A stretch of DNA of 5,399 bases, taken from assembly GCA_029883145.1 (NCBI GenBank), contig JAOUJR010000133.1, forward strand, positions 1-5,399. The letters run 5' to 3'. Below the pieces are notes generated by a model, which was not told the origin of the DNA, did not search any database, and was given only the letters and a program-made list of their open reading frames with translations. The translations under genes were made by a program, and so were the position numbers. Positions 1 through 5,227 of this stretch are shown here, piece after piece (position 1 is the stretch's first letter; every line of letters begins with the position of its first letter). Origin of the DNA: Nitrospirota bacterium (lineage in GTDB: Bacteria; Nitrospirota; Thermodesulfovibrionia; Thermodesulfovibrionales; SM23-35).

Positions 1-221
1 CTATCAAAGCAAGAATTACGAAAAATATCTCTTCGAGTCCTGGTCGTGAAGAACATATAAGTGTTTACCTTGAAGAAAGGAATGGAGAGATATGGGCTAT
101 TCCAATACTCGGCAAATCAGGTCTCATCACCACACAAATAAAGGCAGATGGAATGGCAGTGATTCCATTGAGAAAACTTGGGGTTCAAGAAGGTGAGATT
201 GTAGAAGTCAGGCTTTTTTAA
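1..221 (+). CDS. moeA: MoeA C-terminal domain (molybdopterin molybdenumtransferase), 3' part only
   Basis: The gene enters from the left edge. The frame starting at base 3 is open for 72 codons and ends at TAA 219-221. MoeA inserts molybdate into adenylylated molybdopterin in the cytoplasm, the last step of molybdenum-cofactor synthesis. The visible part matches the family's C-terminal domain IV: a short Lys-Ala-Arg strand, the SSSPGREE turn followed by an alternating beta strand, the GKSGLITT segment, an ADG...IP strand, a G-x-x-x-GE turn and the typical final EVRLF. The catalytic domain III lies outside the window, so activity cannot be judged. The stop is followed by 210 bases before the next gene, which has its own promoter candidate, so it is probably a separate transcription unit. 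A tungsten-specific paralogue or a MoeA fused to another domain upstream cannot be excluded. Confidence 0.85.
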   Translation, partial: IKARITKNISSSPGREEHISVYLEERNGEIWAIPILGKSGLITTQIKADGMAVIPLRKLGVQEGEIVEVRLF

Positions 222-335
222 TATAAAAATCTGTGAGGCAAAAACTTAATCTTTTCTATAATCTGAGCAAAGTTGAACAATTTTCCTGTATCTTCAAAAT
301 TAAAACTGCAATAATTTTGCGAATAACATACGCTC

Positions 336-364
336 TTGACCAATGTTCTTTTACATGGTATTTT
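336..364 (+). promoter_or_regulatory. Candidate sigma70-type promoter for the aspS-gatC/gatA/gatB operon
   Basis: A -35-like TTGACC (336-341, 5 of 6 consensus bases) is followed after exactly 17 bases by a -10-like TATTTT (359-364, 4 of 6). The predicted start of transcription is near 371, giving a leader of about 60 nt before the GTG start of aspS. Position, orientation and spacing fit a housekeeping promoter. The -10 is weak, so this is a prediction. Confidence 0.5.
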
Positions 365-415
365 ATGACTGCCTGCTTCTCATGGGCAATCGAGGCATCT
401 TGGAAAAATCTATAT

Positions 416-420
416 AAGGA
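416..420 (+). promoter_or_regulatory. Ribosome binding site supporting the GTG start of aspS-gatC
   Basis: AAGGA lies 11 bases before the GTG at 432, separated by a purine-only A-rich spacer. The spacing is a little long but usable. No ATG, GTG or TTG is present in the same frame between about 378 and 432, and the encoded N-terminus then lines up with the usual AspRS start (Cys-Gly-Gln-Leu, then DVGREV, then GWV). This supports the GTG start. Confidence 0.55.
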
Positions 421-431
421 AAAGAAAAAAA

Positions 432-2549
432 GTGACATACCATAACCGATCAAACTGCGGGCAACTGAGCTTATCCGACGTGGGGAGGGAGGTTTCGCTG
501 GCAGGCTGGGTCGATGCACTGAGAGATCATGGAGAGGTGCTCTTTATTCACCTGCGTGACCGAAGCGGTATTATCCAGGTTATTTTCAGCCCGGAATCCA
601 CTTCCCAGGAGATTTACGACAGGGCAAGACTCCTCAAAAACGAATTTTGCGTTTTCCTCACCGGTCGGGTGGTTAAACGGGTAAAAGGCACTGAAAATCC
701 AAATATTATTACCGGGGATATTGAAGTGTTCGCCACAGATCTCGCTATCCTGAAGAAATCCAATACATTGCCATTCCCCATATCAGAAAAGTCCATGGTT
801 GCTGGTACGGCTATCAAGCGAGATGAGTCAATAAATGAGGATTTGAGGCTGCAGTATCGCTATCTTGACCTTCGACGACCTACGATGCAGGATCATCTTA
901 TAAAAAGGCACCGCATATTAAAGGTTGTTCGTGATTTTCTTGATGAACAAGGGTTCATTGAAATAGAAACTCCGATGTTGACGAAAAGTACACCCGAAGG
1001 AGCCCGGGACTATCTTGTTCCCAGCAGGCATCACCCAAAACAGTTTTATGCACTACCCCAGTCGCCCCAGCTTTTCAAACAACTCCTTATGGTGAGCGGT
1101 ATGGAGCGGTATTTCCAGATCGTCAGATGTTTTCGGGATGAGGACCTGCGTCCCAACCGCCAGCCAGAGTTCACACAACTTGATCTGGAGGCATCATTCA
1201 TCGACGAGGAATTCATTTATGAGCTCTTTGAAGAACTATCCTCTCGGATATTTGAAATCGGGGGAATCAATCTGCCTCGTCCCTTCCAGAGAATGACCTG
1301 GCAGGAAGCCATGAACAGCACAGGCTCTGACCGGCCAGATCTGCGCTTTGGCATGACCTTTAGAGACGCTACCGACATTTTCATTAATACGAGGTACGGC
1401 ATTTTTAAGCAGATTCTCAAACGGGGCGGGTGCATCAAAGGTATCAACGTCAAAGGCCGGTCTGATAAACTGAGCAAGAATATCCTCCAGAACGAGTATG
1501 CAAAAGAGATTGTCCCGGGTTTTGGCGCCAAGGGTATGACCTGGATGCGGGTGCTTGACGGCGGGCTGGAGTCCAACATCGTACAGTTTTTCAGTGAGAA
1601 TGAGCGGAATGAAATCCTCAAACGCTTTGACGCAGAAAACGGTGACGTGATTCTTATGATCGCTGACCCGTCCTGTGCCCTCGTGTGTTCAGCACTCGGC
1701 CAGCTCCGTCTCCTTATAGCAGAACGGCTGAACATGATTCCCAAAGATGTATTTTGTCCGGTATGGGTAACGGATTTCCCCCTCTTTGAGGAGACTGAAG
1801 ATGGAATAACTTCAAGCCATCATCCTTTTACCATGCCTGACCGAACGGACTTTGACTCTGGCAATACCGAGGAACTTTTAACACTGCGTTCACGTGCTTA
1901 TGACCTTGTCGTGAACGGAGAAGAACTCGGTGGCGGAAGCATCCGGATAAACGATAGAGATTTGCAGAACAAAATGTTTCAGGCCCTTGGCCTTTCAGAA
2001 ACAGACGTGGAAGAAAAATTCGGATTTTTCATTCGTGCCCTCGAATATGGGCCTCCTCCCCATGGCGGCATTGCACTGGGAATTGACCGGGTTGTTGCCA
2101 TGATATTAGGGACATCATCAATCAGGGAGGTAATCGCATTCCCCAAGAACCGCAGTGCTTTTTGTCCTCTCACACAAGCGCCTTCTCCTGTAGTTTCGAA
2201 ACAGCTCGCCGAACTCGGCCTTCTTGATATGGGTGGGACACAACCGTTACCTGGTTCCAAAGAGCAGCAGGATCTGATTGATTCGCTTTCCTGGGTGTCC
2301 CGTATTAGCATTAATGCCACTGAACGGCCTGCGATAATTGTCGCAGTGCAGGATGCTGCAGCCCTGGCAGAAATAGTCAACCGCCATGGCGGGGAAGATG
2401 AACCATTATTTTCTGTTGTTACCGTAGCAAATCGCACCCGAACGGGGACTGAGGCTCGCACGAGCCTATTAGCAGAAAAAGGCGAACTGTTTAAAAACGC
2501 ACCGGCAATAAAAGGTGGCTACTTTAAGGTAGCGAGCATTCTAGAATAA
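432..2549 (+). CDS. aspS: Aspartyl-tRNA synthetase (non-discriminating type) fused to a GatC-like domain
   Basis: The product has 705 residues against about 590 for usual bacterial AspRS. It charges tRNA(Asp), and by signature tRNA(Asn), with Asp in the cytoplasm. Visible parts are an OB-fold anticodon-binding domain (about 1-110), class II motif 1 (about 169-189), the STPEGARDYLVPS flipping loop (186-198), the Asp-binding QSPQLFK (210-216), motif 2 FRDED (234-238), the bacterial GAD insertion (about 304-436), HHPF, GGGSIR and motif 3 GIDR (550-553). All key catalytic residues are present. His33 and Gly86 are at the positions that mark non-discriminating AspRS. After the normal AspRS end (about 600) comes a linker and a GatC-like domain (about 612-705), in frame with no stop. 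The protein therefore looks like an AspRS-GatC fusion. It heads the operon; gatA starts 9 bases after its stop. The AspRS identity is near certain and the GatC part is very likely. Confidence 0.96.
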   Translation: MTYHNRSNCGQLSLSDVGREVSLAGWVDALRDHGEVLFIHLRDRSGIIQVIFSPESTSQEIYDRARLLKNEFCVFLTGRVVKRVKGTENPNIITGDIEVFATDLAILKKSNTLPFPISEKSMVAGTAIKRDESINEDLRLQYRYLDLRRPTMQDHLIKRHRILKVVRDFLDEQGFIEIETPMLTKSTPEGARDYLVPSRHHPKQFYALPQSPQLFKQLLMVSGMERYFQIVRCFRDEDLRPNRQPEFTQLDLEASFIDEEFIYELFEELSSRIFEIGGINLPRPFQRMTWQEAMNSTGSDRPDLRFGMTFRDATDIFINTRYGIFKQILKRGGCIKGINVKGRSDKLSKNILQNEYAKEIVPGFGAKGMTWMRVLDGGLESNIVQFFSENERNEILKRFDAENGDVILMIADPSCALVCSALGQLRLLIAERLNMIPKDVFCPVWVTDFPLFEETEDGITSSHHPFTMPDRTDFDSGNTEELLTLRSRAYDLVVNGEELGGGSIRINDRDLQNKMFQALGLSETDVEEKFGFFIRALEYGPPPHGGIALGIDRVVAMILGTSSIREVIAFPKNRSAFCPLTQAPSPVVSKQLAELGLLDMGGTQPLPGSKEQQDLIDSLSWVSRISINATERPAIIVAVQDAAALAEIVNRHGGEDEPLFSVVTVANRTRTGTEARTSLLAEKGELFKNAPAIKGGYFKVASILE
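2265..2546 (+). other. GatC-like C-terminal domain of the AspRS fusion protein
   Basis: Residues about 612-705 match GatC in length (about 94) and layout. An N-terminal helix (DLIDSLSWVSRISI) resembles the family pattern of a helix ending in I-A-x-L-A-R-L, a second Ala-rich helix corresponds to the region before I-L-x-Y, and the end, KNAPAIKGGYFKVASILE, matches the GatC C-terminus (A-N-A-P, then G-F/Y-F-K-V-P, then I-x-E). The middle, where GatC usually has a V-x-P-x-x-H-V loop and an N-V-x-R-x-D motif, is only loosely kept. GatC normally wraps around the GatA-GatB interface and stabilises GatA. A free gatC would be expected directly before gatA; this domain sits exactly there, only joined to AspRS. 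Confidence 0.8.
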
Positions 2550-2552
2550 GGA
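2548..2552 (+). promoter_or_regulatory. Ribosome binding site fixing the short start of the gatA-like gene
   Basis: AAGGA overlaps the aspS-gatC stop (TAA 2547-2549) and lies 6 bases before ATG 2559. The same frame is blocked by that stop and the three codons between (GGA ATA GCA) offer no normal start. The short N-terminus of the GatA-like protein is therefore real and not a start-choice error, barring a sequencing mistake. Confidence 0.75.
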
Positions 2553-2558
2553 ATAGCA

Positions 2559-3782
2559 ATGGCGTCAGATATCTTTACCTATAAGAATATATTACCGCAA
2601 ACATCCACAGAAGGTGGGGTGCTTGCAGGGAAAAAGGTTGTCATACAGCCAAATATGTCTGCTCGCGGATGGCTTACCAATGCTGGTTCTATGGCCCTTG
2701 AGGGTTTTATTGCTCTCGAAGACGCAACAGTAATCACCCGCCTCAGGAATGCAGGCGCTGCTCTTATCGGCAGTACCCGCATGAGTGAACTAGGTTTTGG
2801 ACTTTCTGACGATAAAGGAACTCGAACCCTCTGCGGAGGCGAAGCTGATATTGCTTTGATTACAGACACTATGGGCGAAGTCCGTGTTGCCGCTGCAACG
2901 TCCGGCCTTTTCGGATTCAAACCAAGTTACGGTATTATTTCCCGCTTCGGCCTGATCGGCCTTGTTCCCTCCATGGAGTGCTATGGAATTATGGCGAAAA
3001 GTCCGGAAGATATCATTACCACCATAGGGGCGATTACAGGCAAAGACGAAAATGATTTCTCGATGCCCGATGAAAAGCTGCCCGATTTCAGTATGCCGGA
3101 GGAATCACCGAAGACAACAGGTGTTGTCGGTGTCATGAAGGAATGTCTCAGCACCCTGGATGATACGGAACTCAAGGCCTTCGAGGCAGGACTTGCAAAG
3201 ATCGAGGAAGCCGGGTTAATGATACAGGAGGTAAGCCTTGAAAACTTCAGACTCTTTCAAACCGTTCACAATGTAATCGGTTCTGTAGAGGCATCCTCCA
3301 GTGCCGGCAAGTACGACGGCGTTCGTTACGGTCACCGCGCTGCTTCGGCAAAGAACTGGAACGAAATGTATCTGAGTTCCCGGGGAGAATCATTCAGATT
3401 GCTTATGAAGACGTATCTGTTTCAAGGAGCCTATTTCCAGTTTGAAAAATATCCTGCCTTTGAAAATGCCTGCCGCATCCGCCGCCGCCTTATTCGAGAT
3501 ACTGAAAAATTATTCGAACATATTGATGTTCTTGCTTTGCCAACACGAAGGCATCATCATGATCCTGCCAAAGCAGCAACAATCAGCGAGACCTACGATG
3601 CCTTTTTGCTGACCCTCTCAGCCAACGTAACCGGTCAGCCTTGCCTTCAGATTCCGTCTCTCTGCCTGAACTCGGGAGCTGACCTTGGTTTGCAAATCAT
3701 TAGCCCCCGTCTCAGCGATGTCCGTTTATTGGCTACCGGCATGAGAATTTCATCTATCATTCAAGGAGCAAAAGAGACATGA
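2559..3782 (+). CDS. gatA: GatA-family pseudoamidase (catalytic triad lost)
   Basis: The product has 407 residues against about 485 for GatA, the glutaminase subunit of Asp/Glu-tRNA amidotransferase. Homology is clear: LAG-x-x-VVI (22-29), DATVITRLRNAGA (55-67), IGSTRMSELGFG (70-81), GFKPSYG...SRFGLIGLVPS (119-138), EASSSAGKYDGVRYGHRA (244-261), FEHIDVLALPT (319-329) and ANVTGQP (355-361). The active site is missing. The catalytic Lys of the I-K-D-N motif is Gln30 (VIQPN). The GGSSGGS loop with the cis-Ser is gone: about 22 residues are deleted and only GGEAD remains (93-97). DTGGS, which holds the nucleophilic Ser, reads DTMGE (103-107), so Ser became Glu. The N-terminal helical segment of about 50-60 residues is also absent. 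It starts 9 bases after aspS-gatC and overlaps gatB by 4 bases. I infer a structural or regulatory subunit, not a glutaminase. The uninterrupted frame and kept motifs argue against a dying pseudogene. Confidence 0.88.
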   Translation: MASDIFTYKNILPQTSTEGGVLAGKKVVIQPNMSARGWLTNAGSMALEGFIALEDATVITRLRNAGAALIGSTRMSELGFGLSDDKGTRTLCGGEADIALITDTMGEVRVAAATSGLFGFKPSYGIISRFGLIGLVPSMECYGIMAKSPEDIITTIGAITGKDENDFSMPDEKLPDFSMPEESPKTTGVVGVMKECLSTLDDTELKAFEAGLAKIEEAGLMIQEVSLENFRLFQTVHNVIGSVEASSSAGKYDGVRYGHRAASAKNWNEMYLSSRGESFRLLMKTYLFQGAYFQFEKYPAFENACRIRRRLIRDTEKLFEHIDVLALPTRRHHHDPAKAATISETYDAFLLTLSANVTGQPCLQIPSLCLNSGADLGLQIISPRLSDVRLLATGMRISSIIQGAKET

Positions 3783-5206
3783 AGTATGAAGCGGTCATTG
3801 GTCTTGAAATACATGTTCAGCTCAACTCTGCTACCAAGCTTTTTTGCGATTGCAAGAACCGGCCGGGTGATCAGCCAAATCAGAATACGTGCCCCATTTG
3901 CCTCTGGTTCCCTGGAGCACTGCCAAAATTCAGCCAGGAAGCACTGGAAAAGGCAACCCTGGCATGTCTTGCCATGAATTGCACTATTCAGCCGGAGAGC
4001 GCATTTGACCAAAAGGTGTATTACTATCCTGATCTGCCGAAAGGATTTCAGCTTTCCCAACATCACCGGCCTCTGGCTAAAAATGGCTGGCTCGATATCC
4101 TCGGTGAGGACAAAACCGTGAAAAGATTGCGGATACACCATATCCACATGGAAGAGGATGTTGCCAGGCTTGTTCACGAGACAGAAGGACGGACACCAAT
4201 CAGCTTGGTTGATTTCAACCGGGCAGGTACCCCGCTGATCGAGATTGTAACTGAACCGGATATGCGGACCCCCTATGATGCTATGGAATTTGTTCGCGCT
4301 TTAAGGACGCAATTACGCTATACCGGCAGTTCAGATTGCAGCATGGAACAGGGAACGCTCAGGGTGGATGCAAATATCTCACTGCGGCCCAGGGGCACAG
4401 ATGCGTTCAATACAAAAGTAGAAGTGAAAAACATGAATTCGATCCGCAACGTGGCGGATGCGATTGCTTACGAAATCAAGCGTCAAACAGAGTGCCTTGG
4501 CAGGGGTGAGCCCATCGTGCTCCATACACGGCTTTGGGATTCTGAAAAAAATGTGACAACTGCAATGCGCGGTAAATTTTCCGGTCCCTGTATACCAGAC
4601 CCGTCCGTACCTAAGATAGTGGTTACCGATGCCTGGTTGCAGGATATCTTGAGCAGGCTGCCGGAGATGCCAAGCCAGAAAGCGGCGCGTTTTTTAAGCG
4701 AGTACGGCCTTACTTCTGATGAAGCCTCAAACATGAGCCAGGAACAGGACATGTCAGAATTTTTTGAAGCAGTTGCAAACGAGAACCTGCCGCCGCGCAA
4801 GGTAGCAAGCTGGATGGCTACCCATCTCATTCCTTTCCTCAAGGACAATAATCAGACGATAAAGGACACCCCGCTGACCCCAAAGCGCTTCGCCAGTCTC
4901 CTCTCCATGCTCGAGACTGATGTAATAAACGCAAATGCAGCCAAGGAGGTATTGACTAAGCTTCTCTCAAGTGATCAGTCACCTGAGGAGATTGTTGAAA
5001 AGGGCCGTTTCCGGCAAGTTTCCGATAACGCTGAGCTTGAAGCACTTATCGACAGGATACTTGCAGACCATCTCTCTGATGTTGAGGATTTCCGAAATGG
5101 GAACACCAAAGTAATGGGATTCTTTATGGGCTTGGCTATGAAAGCATCTCAGGGGAAAGCCAACCCTAAGGTCTTAAAAGAAATTCTTACGAAGCGGCTG
5201 AGTTGA
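3779..5206 (+). CDS. gatB: GatB, Asp/Glu-tRNA amidotransferase subunit B, with altered motifs
   Basis: The product has 475 residues, the normal GatB length. GatB binds the mischarged tRNA, activates the Asp or Glu side chain with ATP and transfers ammonia to it. Visible are VIGLEIHVQL (6-15, with the metal-site E10 and H12), a four-Cys zinc site (C23, C25, C38, C41), YYYPDLPKGFQLSQ (81-94), HMEED (123-127), the GatB signature LVDFNRAGTPLIEIV (143-157), DANISLRP (197-204), VEVKNMNS (214-221), and a C-terminal helical/YqeY-like tail ending with GFFMGLAMKAS and ANPKVLKEIL. Two usually strict segments are changed: the DYRYFPEPD block reads SGPCIPDPS (268-276) after a deletion of about 3 residues, and MEEGSxRCDAN reads MEQGTLRVDAN. 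The ATG overlaps the gatA stop (ATGA), and AAGGAG lies 10 bases upstream, so translation is probably coupled. Family identity is certain; whether it does standard amidation is open. Confidence 0.95.
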   Translation: MKYEAVIGLEIHVQLNSATKLFCDCKNRPGDQPNQNTCPICLWFPGALPKFSQEALEKATLACLAMNCTIQPESAFDQKVYYYPDLPKGFQLSQHHRPLAKNGWLDILGEDKTVKRLRIHHIHMEEDVARLVHETEGRTPISLVDFNRAGTPLIEIVTEPDMRTPYDAMEFVRALRTQLRYTGSSDCSMEQGTLRVDANISLRPRGTDAFNTKVEVKNMNSIRNVADAIAYEIKRQTECLGRGEPIVLHTRLWDSEKNVTTAMRGKFSGPCIPDPSVPKIVVTDAWLQDILSRLPEMPSQKAARFLSEYGLTSDEASNMSQEQDMSEFFEAVANENLPPRKVASWMATHLIPFLKDNNQTIKDTPLTPKRFASLLSMLETDVINANAAKEVLTKLLSSDQSPEEIVEKGRFRQVSDNAELEALIDRILADHLSDVEDFRNGNTKVMGFFMGLAMKASQGKANPKVLKEILTKRLS

Positions 5207-5227
5207 ATCGGAGAAAAGGATAAGTGG

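Follow-up and report, generated by a model that had tools for sequence, protein, structure and literature searches.

A paralogous AspRS-GatC, GatA and GatB cassette that has lost the glutaminase triad: a candidate rebuilt transamidosome

GatCAB is the textbook enzyme of glutaminase-coupled amidation on tRNA, and together with a non-discriminating aspartyl-tRNA synthetase (AspRS) it makes up the Asn transamidosome described in T. thermophilus (3kfu) and P. aeruginosa (4wj3). Here, we analysed a stretch of 5,399 nucleotides from a Nitrospirota bacterium (the window; contig JAOUJR010000133.1, our C7, of the 2.23-Mb assembly GCA_029883145.1, which has 444 contigs and is 86.6% complete). Its four genes all lie on the + strand: the end of moeA, an AspRS-GatC fusion, a GatA-like gene and a GatB-like gene. 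The last three form a cassette that holds, by sequence, the same four parts as the Asn transamidosome, and we denote its special forms AspRS-star, GatC-star, GatA-star and GatB-star to distinguish them from their standard counterparts. As judged by alignment, GatA-star has lost all three residues of the glutaminase triad.

The glutaminase site of GatA-star

Based on the alignment with S. aureus GatA (2df4; residues counted by hand), Gln30 of GatA-star lies opposite K79 and Glu107 opposite S178, and between residues 86 and 88 GatA-star has 1 residue, whereas the six standard rows inspected have 23. All 18 standard GatA rows of the alignment hold GGSSGGS; in contrast, each of the 141 GatA-star rows has a single residue at the loop position and none has the loop. 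A first-pass annotation of this DNA had proposed these same changes, namely Gln for the catalytic Lys, Glu for the nucleophile Ser and the deletion of about 22 residues including GGSSGGS, and all three were borne out; the gap narrows to about 2814-2820, inside the 2808-2864 first noted, and Gln occupies position 30 in 130 of the 133 sequences with a residue there.

At positions 30, 107, 237, 286 and 349, the residues of all 18 standard proteins are Lys, Ser, Tyr, Arg and Asp, respectively. The last three, which we take to correspond to the glutamine-contacting Tyr309, Arg358 and Asp425 in S. aureus GatA, are all absent from GatA-star. For yeast, R334 and D418 are named as residues in contact with glutamine (PMC4027206), and the offset of the 4n0h row places R334 no more than a few residues from GatA-star position 286.

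The 407-amino-acid open reading frame is unbroken, as the annotation had held, and the predicted fold is that of GatA, with the amidase-signature fold and with the GatA chains of the transamidosome and of GatCAB as the closest matches. The N-terminal stretch is missing, residue 1 aligning to residue 33-37 of GatA in 3kfu, 3h0l, 4wj3 and 2df4. GatA-star scores 249.9 bits against the curated TIGR00132 cut-off of 481.1 bits (the protein of locus L006 scores 218.9), and it falls outside GatA by the Ser-cisSer-Lys triad and GGSSGGS loop as well as by the Tyr/Arg/Asp contact positions.

Of 7996 candidates scored in a protein search with GatA-star, 1187 matched at E 1e-20. The family counts rest on the best 120 of these 1187, which show 56-100% identity across 91-100% of the query, and on 21 locus proteins, that is, 141 rows of which 139 are distinct; 112 of the 139 are below 90% identity to each other, and the lowest pair is at 40%. 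Glu107, His237, Trp38, Trp267 and Pro137 are invariant (139/139), and Cys305 is kept in 138. Residue 30 is Gln in 130, Arg in 2 and His in 1, the six gaps being rows without that stretch; residue 286 is Tyr in 81, Phe in 57 and Leu in 1; residue 349 is Phe in 130, Cys in 6, Ser in 2 and Leu in 1. A GatA tree built from 39 rows places all 21 star proteins together beyond a long branch (support 100/100). Where the sources name these proteins, they do so as "amidotransferase subunit A", "amidase" or hypothetical protein.

The ratio of nonsynonymous to synonymous substitution rates (dN/dS; Nei-Gojobori, seven pairs, two of which share L063) was 0.18-0.27 for GatA-star, 0.08-0.21 for AspRS-star and 0.05-0.25 for GatB-star, the GatB-star of L074 being a broken copy compared over 243 codons. 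Neither close relatives with an intact triad (0 of 141 rows) nor a dN/dS near 1 was found, and together with the replacements conserved across 139 distinct sequences these values support the earlier proposal of a maintained pseudoenzyme. By these counts GatA-star is a conserved family, and neither chance nor private decay of the window gene would account for it.

The partner proteins, distribution and origin of the cassette

GatB-star belongs to GatB by TIGR00133 (498.4 bits against a cut-off of 314.8) but lacks the invariant ARKN, E96, ET-x-L Glu and DYRYF. We compared 20 star rows with 12 standard rows (11 distinct genes, L003 and L130 being the same gene), and family counts refer to 138 distinct sequences (120 database matches plus 20 loci, duplicates removed). 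The standard-conserved residues that are altered include, in star numbering, G43, A77, R78, N80, E96, A128, G129, E249 and E-x-A-x-DYRYF. Among their substitutes, D77, Q78, V80, V128, A129, H249, F267, G269, P270 and C271 each occur in 138/138, H96 in 137 and W43 in 137 with one gap. The retained residues comprise E125, E126, K79, K88, Y81, Y83 and PDLPK (each 138/138), E10 and H12 (137, one gap) and the four Cys (137, one gap). The new residues of GatB-star thus show the same degree of fixation as those they replaced. Directly before the YPDLPK loop, which presumably meets the tRNA end, ARKN is replaced by DQKV. In yeast GatB, E34, T189, N230 and S232 have been assigned to ATP and H36, E156 and E186 to Mg (PMC4027206). 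E10, H12 and E125 of GatB-star correspond by motif to E34, H36 and E156, and counterparts of T189, N230, S232 and E186 look present in the window GatB-star.

AspRS-star is a bacterial AspRS by TIGR00459 (697.4 bits against a cut-off of 373.85), and the class II motifs QSPQLFKQ, FRDED, GGGSIR and GIDR, among them catalytic ones, are present. The RDHG motif is a mark of non-discriminating AspRS. Twenty-four positions are fixed differently from 11 standard AspRS, and 19 of the 24 are common to the sister fused enzyme introduced below. Pfam GatC gave no match in the window AspRS-GatC protein and is annotated in 11 of the 120 relatives listed; comparison by hhalign of 19 tails with 3 GatC sequences gave a probability of 75.5 and an E-value of 2.4e-5. 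By eye, the terminal branches of the AspRS tree are for the most part shorter for star rows than for standard ones, and this paralogue appears either to evolve more slowly or to have spread more recently.

On other contigs, the own genome (G000) encodes standard gatB, gatC and gatA, the last as two contig-end fragments of which one (L001) carries Lys, GGSSGGS and DTGGSIR; it also encodes a standard AspRS cut short by a contig end after its first 42 residues, an asparaginyl-tRNA synthetase (AsnRS) and a glutaminyl-tRNA synthetase (GlnRS). The triad loss claimed for the GatA beside gatB stands, yet this GatA is a paralogue beside the standard one and not the organism's sole copy. Similarly, the gatB-operon setting holds in that a GatB-like gene adjoins, but the AspRS-GatC and GatB there are also special forms.

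Our set of 21 star genomes comprises G000 to G004 plus 16 others, all picked for having GatA-star. The genes for AspRS-GatC, GatA-star and GatB-star adjoin in the same order in all 21, and a second GatB is present in all 21. A near-full-length standard AspRS occurs in 17 (the G788 copy with an internal TGA) and only as fragments in two (G000 and G491); none was found in G002 or, at E 1e-60, in G669. GatA-star occurs in 2 of 395 genomes of the window's phylum, the own genome included, where the remaining 16 matches (E 1e-60) are GatA of the standard type that carry GGSSGGS, and in 17 of 395 genomes of the phylum of G003 (E 1e-80). An AspRS-GatC fusion protein is listed for two named species, Syntrophorhabdus aromaticivorans and Desulfatitalea tepidiphila, and a metagenome-assembled genome of Desulfatitalea sp. 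(L006) holds all three cassette genes. Directly downstream of GatB-star, L067 (7282-8712) and L068 (7299-8729) have a gene that looks amidase-like by eye, and a second amidase may accompany the cassette in these two genomes. In G559, the 4.46-Mb contig C1 (L154 and one other locus) carries two different tRNA-Trp(CCA) genes.

Besides their star operon and an AspRS encoded separately, two of the star genomes, G606 and G650, hold a further fused operon of AspRS-GatC, GatA and GatB (L132 1822-6938 and L133 1-4506; the AspRS of G650 is cut off by the contig start). This sister operon has a plain GatC domain, a GatA with intact triad (IAIKDN or VAVKDN, GGSSGGS, DTGGSIR) and a GatB with DYRYF, and is likely a dedicated fused Asn transamidosome. 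The sister AspRS of G606 is 64% identical to AspRS-star over residues 2-615 and groups with AspRS-star at 100/100, apart from the 11 standard AspRS, while the sister GatA lies among standard GatA (85/83 for the fork holding it). From these trees, the star set is best seen as a remodelled fused transamidosome.

The cassette has most likely moved between bacteria as a unit, on several grounds. A blastn search aligned window 326-5220 with L005 5766-10662 as one block of 4897 columns at 96.3% identity and found no match in the flanks of the cassette, whereas the longest tblastx segment of the lysyl-tRNA synthetase of the same two genomes is 77.5% identical. The GC content of the cassette is 0.486, against 0.351 and 0.385 in the flanks and 0.422 in seven other stretches of the own genome, and the left flank is the moeA of the host: window 1-325 is matched in 16 of 20 same-family genomes, own included, and at 85% and 81% in the genus's two others. 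Movement as a unit suggests in turn that the cassette works by itself.

Additionally, the own genome has a second moeA tail at a contig end (L146; G000 C265 9846-10134), 91% identical to window 1-291, which may reflect either a strain mixture or a duplication at the contig break. In a same-genus genome (L147 1181-1801), moeA is followed by what appears by eye to be a small gene pair, RelE/HigB-like and HigA-like, and the spot after moeA looks open to insertion. None of the three cassette proteins matched a PADLOC anti-phage defence model at E 0.001. Nine bases separate the AspRS-star stop from the GatA-star start. The promoter match in the table is weak, since the window has 6 sigma-70-like sites against 6.4 expected by chance.

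Table 1. Coordinates of the cassette and of its altered positions in the window.
Feature	Coordinates	Strand	Evidence
Three-gene cassette	326..5220	+	96.3% nucleotide identity to L005 (different genus, same family)
AspRS-GatC fusion (AspRS-star, GatC-star), 705 amino acids, GTG start	432..2549	+	aspS_bact TIGR00459 697 bits; PRK12820 1246 bits
GatC-like tail (GatC-star), ends NAPAIKGGYFKVASILE	2220..2546	+	hhalign against GatC
GatA-star, 407 amino acids, amidase family without glutaminase residues, intact open reading frame	2559..3782	+	Open reading frame, domain search, alignment, predicted fold
Codon 30 CAG, Gln for catalytic Lys	2646..2648	+	Alignment; family counts
Site where standard GatA has 22 extra residues including GGSSGGS (cis-Ser loop)	2814..2820	+	141/141 GatA-star rows
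Codon 107 GAA, Glu for nucleophile Ser	2877..2879	+	139/139 homologues
His237 for invariant standard Tyr	3267..3269	+	His 139/139 against Tyr 18/18
Tyr286 (Tyr/Phe across family) for invariant standard Arg	3414..3416	+	138/139 against Arg 18/18
Phe349 for invariant standard Asp	3603..3605	+	130/139 against Asp 18/18
GatB-star, 475 amino acids, overlapping the GatA-star stop	3779..5206	+	TIGR00133 498 bits (cut-off 315)
GatB-star D77 Q78 K79 V80, standard A R K N, directly before YYYPDLPK	4007..4018	+	D, Q, V 138/138
GatB-star His96, standard Glu	4064..4066	+	137/138
GatB-star His249, standard Glu of ET-x-L motif	4523..4525	+	138/138
GatB-star F267-S-G-P-C271, shorter substitute for E-x-A-x-DYRYF	4577..4591	+	F, G, P, C 138/138
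Candidate sigma-70-like promoter TTGACC-17-TATTTT, in cassette, upstream of AspRS-star	336..364	+	Consensus scan
Host moeA end, left flank, outside cassette	3..221	+	MoeA_C domain

Possible functions of the cassette

We tentatively favour, at a little short of even chances, a rebuilt Asp-tRNA transamidosome that charges tRNA with Asp and then acts on the bound Asp without glutamine-derived ammonia, using another nucleophile or acceptor. AspRS-star, GatC-star, GatA-star and GatB-star would form one complex, as argued from the gene fusion and the operon order. AspRS-star would make Asp-tRNA, with Asp-tRNA(Asn) probably among the products, given that the nearest relative found in this analysis is an AspRS joined to GatC, next to which GatA and GatB are intact. 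E. coli reporter strains that detect the formation of Asp-tRNA(Asn) and Asn-tRNA(Asn) are available (PMC4206432). GatC-star would tether GatA-star and GatB-star, GatB-star would take the tRNA end and activate the Asp side chain with ATP, and some other small nucleophile, which the remodelled GatA-star/GatB-star pocket would supply or hold, would substitute for ammonia. A more specific version, in which attack of a non-ammonia nucleophile on the ATP-activated Asp side chain builds a non-standard aspartate derivative on the tRNA, that is, an undescribed tRNA-dependent amino acid pathway, seems to us unlikely.

Several observations weigh against the rebuilt transamidosome. AsnRS is over its cut-off in 8 of the 21 star genomes and GlnRS in 18, a pattern by which the cassette is not explained by pathway need. 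GatB-star is broken by stops in G650 (L074 3179-4479) and AspRS-star is split into two frames in G788 (L072/L135, C219), the neighbouring star genes being open in both, and these two cases indicate that loss of the system is possible. In G559, the 45 typed tRNAs include one tRNA-Asp and one tRNA-Asn, with no sign of a dedicated tRNA. The AspRS tree carries a warning that long branches meet. Finally, the bulky Phe and Tyr that stand where glutamine was once contacted may do no more than occupy the site, a point in favour of a scaffold and nothing else.

The last point leads to a silent transamidosome, which would bind Asp-tRNA without side-chain chemistry and sequester it, proofread it, pass on Asp-tRNA(Asn) or exert control over the standard GatCAB, with GatA-star as no more than plug and scaffold. 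The triad and the three presumed contact positions are all replaced, two of the latter mostly by aromatic residues, and with a second GatB in every star genome the standard reaction is probably covered. Nevertheless, E10, H12, E125 and E126 of GatB-star are kept in 137-138 of 138 sequences, which a mere binder would not need, and its new residues are fixed as firmly as the old. We therefore consider the silent form somewhat unlikely.

GatCAB enzymes accept ammonium in vitro, and GatB-star, having kept the ATP/Mg residues as well as K79 and K88, might amidate Asp-tRNA(Asn) with free ammonium, which would make glutamine hydrolysis by GatA-star unneeded. The first-pass annotation had likewise let GatB simply use free ammonia, an idea weakened by the replacement of GatB-star's own conserved residues: ammonia-dependent Asn-tRNA synthesis leaves unexplained the loss of DYRYF, N80, E96 and E249, all invariant in the 12 standard rows, and it would be redundant with the second GatB alongside. 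We regard it as rather unlikely. The annotation's further suggestions for GatA-star, a scaffold role, a different ligand or another nucleophile, may each apply.

Decay, in which a duplicated copy of a fused transamidosome operon is being lost, would fit the broken copies in G650 and G788, but it is already refuted for the family by a dN/dS of 0.05-0.27, by the same replacements in 139 distinct GatA-star sequences and by the recent spread between genera, and it retains hardly any probability. An assembly or binning artefact, with a contig foreign to the genome or a misassembled GatA-star, might be suspected from the contig of merely 5.4 kb and the second moeA tail, yet it is extremely improbable given the left flank of this lineage's own moeA, the nearly identical three genes on a 23.7-kb contig of another assembly (L005) and the related ones in 19 further genomes.

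If the rebuilt transamidosome is real, a paralogous set that is under selection and mobile as a unit, with its glutaminase gone and its transferase reworked in step, would represent a new use of Asp-tRNA. Many of the parts are entered in the source databases as aspartyl-tRNA synthetase and GatA/GatB of the ordinary kind, and pathway predictions that count them may therefore be wrong.

Comparison with known systems

Our literature searches, with most subscription journals outside their reach, found no description of such a system. In PMC4206432, a survey of 547 genera, an extra AspRS is reported in Deinococcus-Thermus, Actinobacteria and Clostridia, so that there, as here, an additional AspRS stands beside GatCAB in one genome; the available discussion of these enzymes names neither an AspRS-GatC fusion nor an altered GatA, and the available text of PMC9437257 on AspRS paralogues makes no mention of such a system.

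The bifunctional AspRS/GatC family NF009460 (PRK12820) has the same full-length architecture, and the window protein aligns over 18-723 of its 723 positions. The cut-off of 1379 bits is not reached by the window protein (1245.7), by that of L008 (1310) or by the sister with intact GatA (992), and given the low score of the last the model seems to have been built on star proteins. In the entry the fusion protein is named, but a partner GatA is not mentioned. The fused operon of G606 and G650 shares its gene order and AspRS clade with the cassette, but differs in its intact triad, its GatB with DYRYF and its plain GatC.

Compared with the Asn transamidosome (3kfu, 4wj3), AspRS-star and GatC-star are one chain, GatA-star is without the triad, the cis-Ser loop and the N-terminal stretch, and GatB-star is without DYRYF and other invariant residues. 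A different comparison is offered by AtzE and AtzG, which derive from GatA and GatC. AtzE retains an active amidase. These and other GatA/GatC-derived complexes (6c62) are a precedent for the reuse of GatA and GatC parts outside tRNA amidation; the cassette, unlike AtzE/AtzG, loses the amidase residues and keeps the tRNA side.
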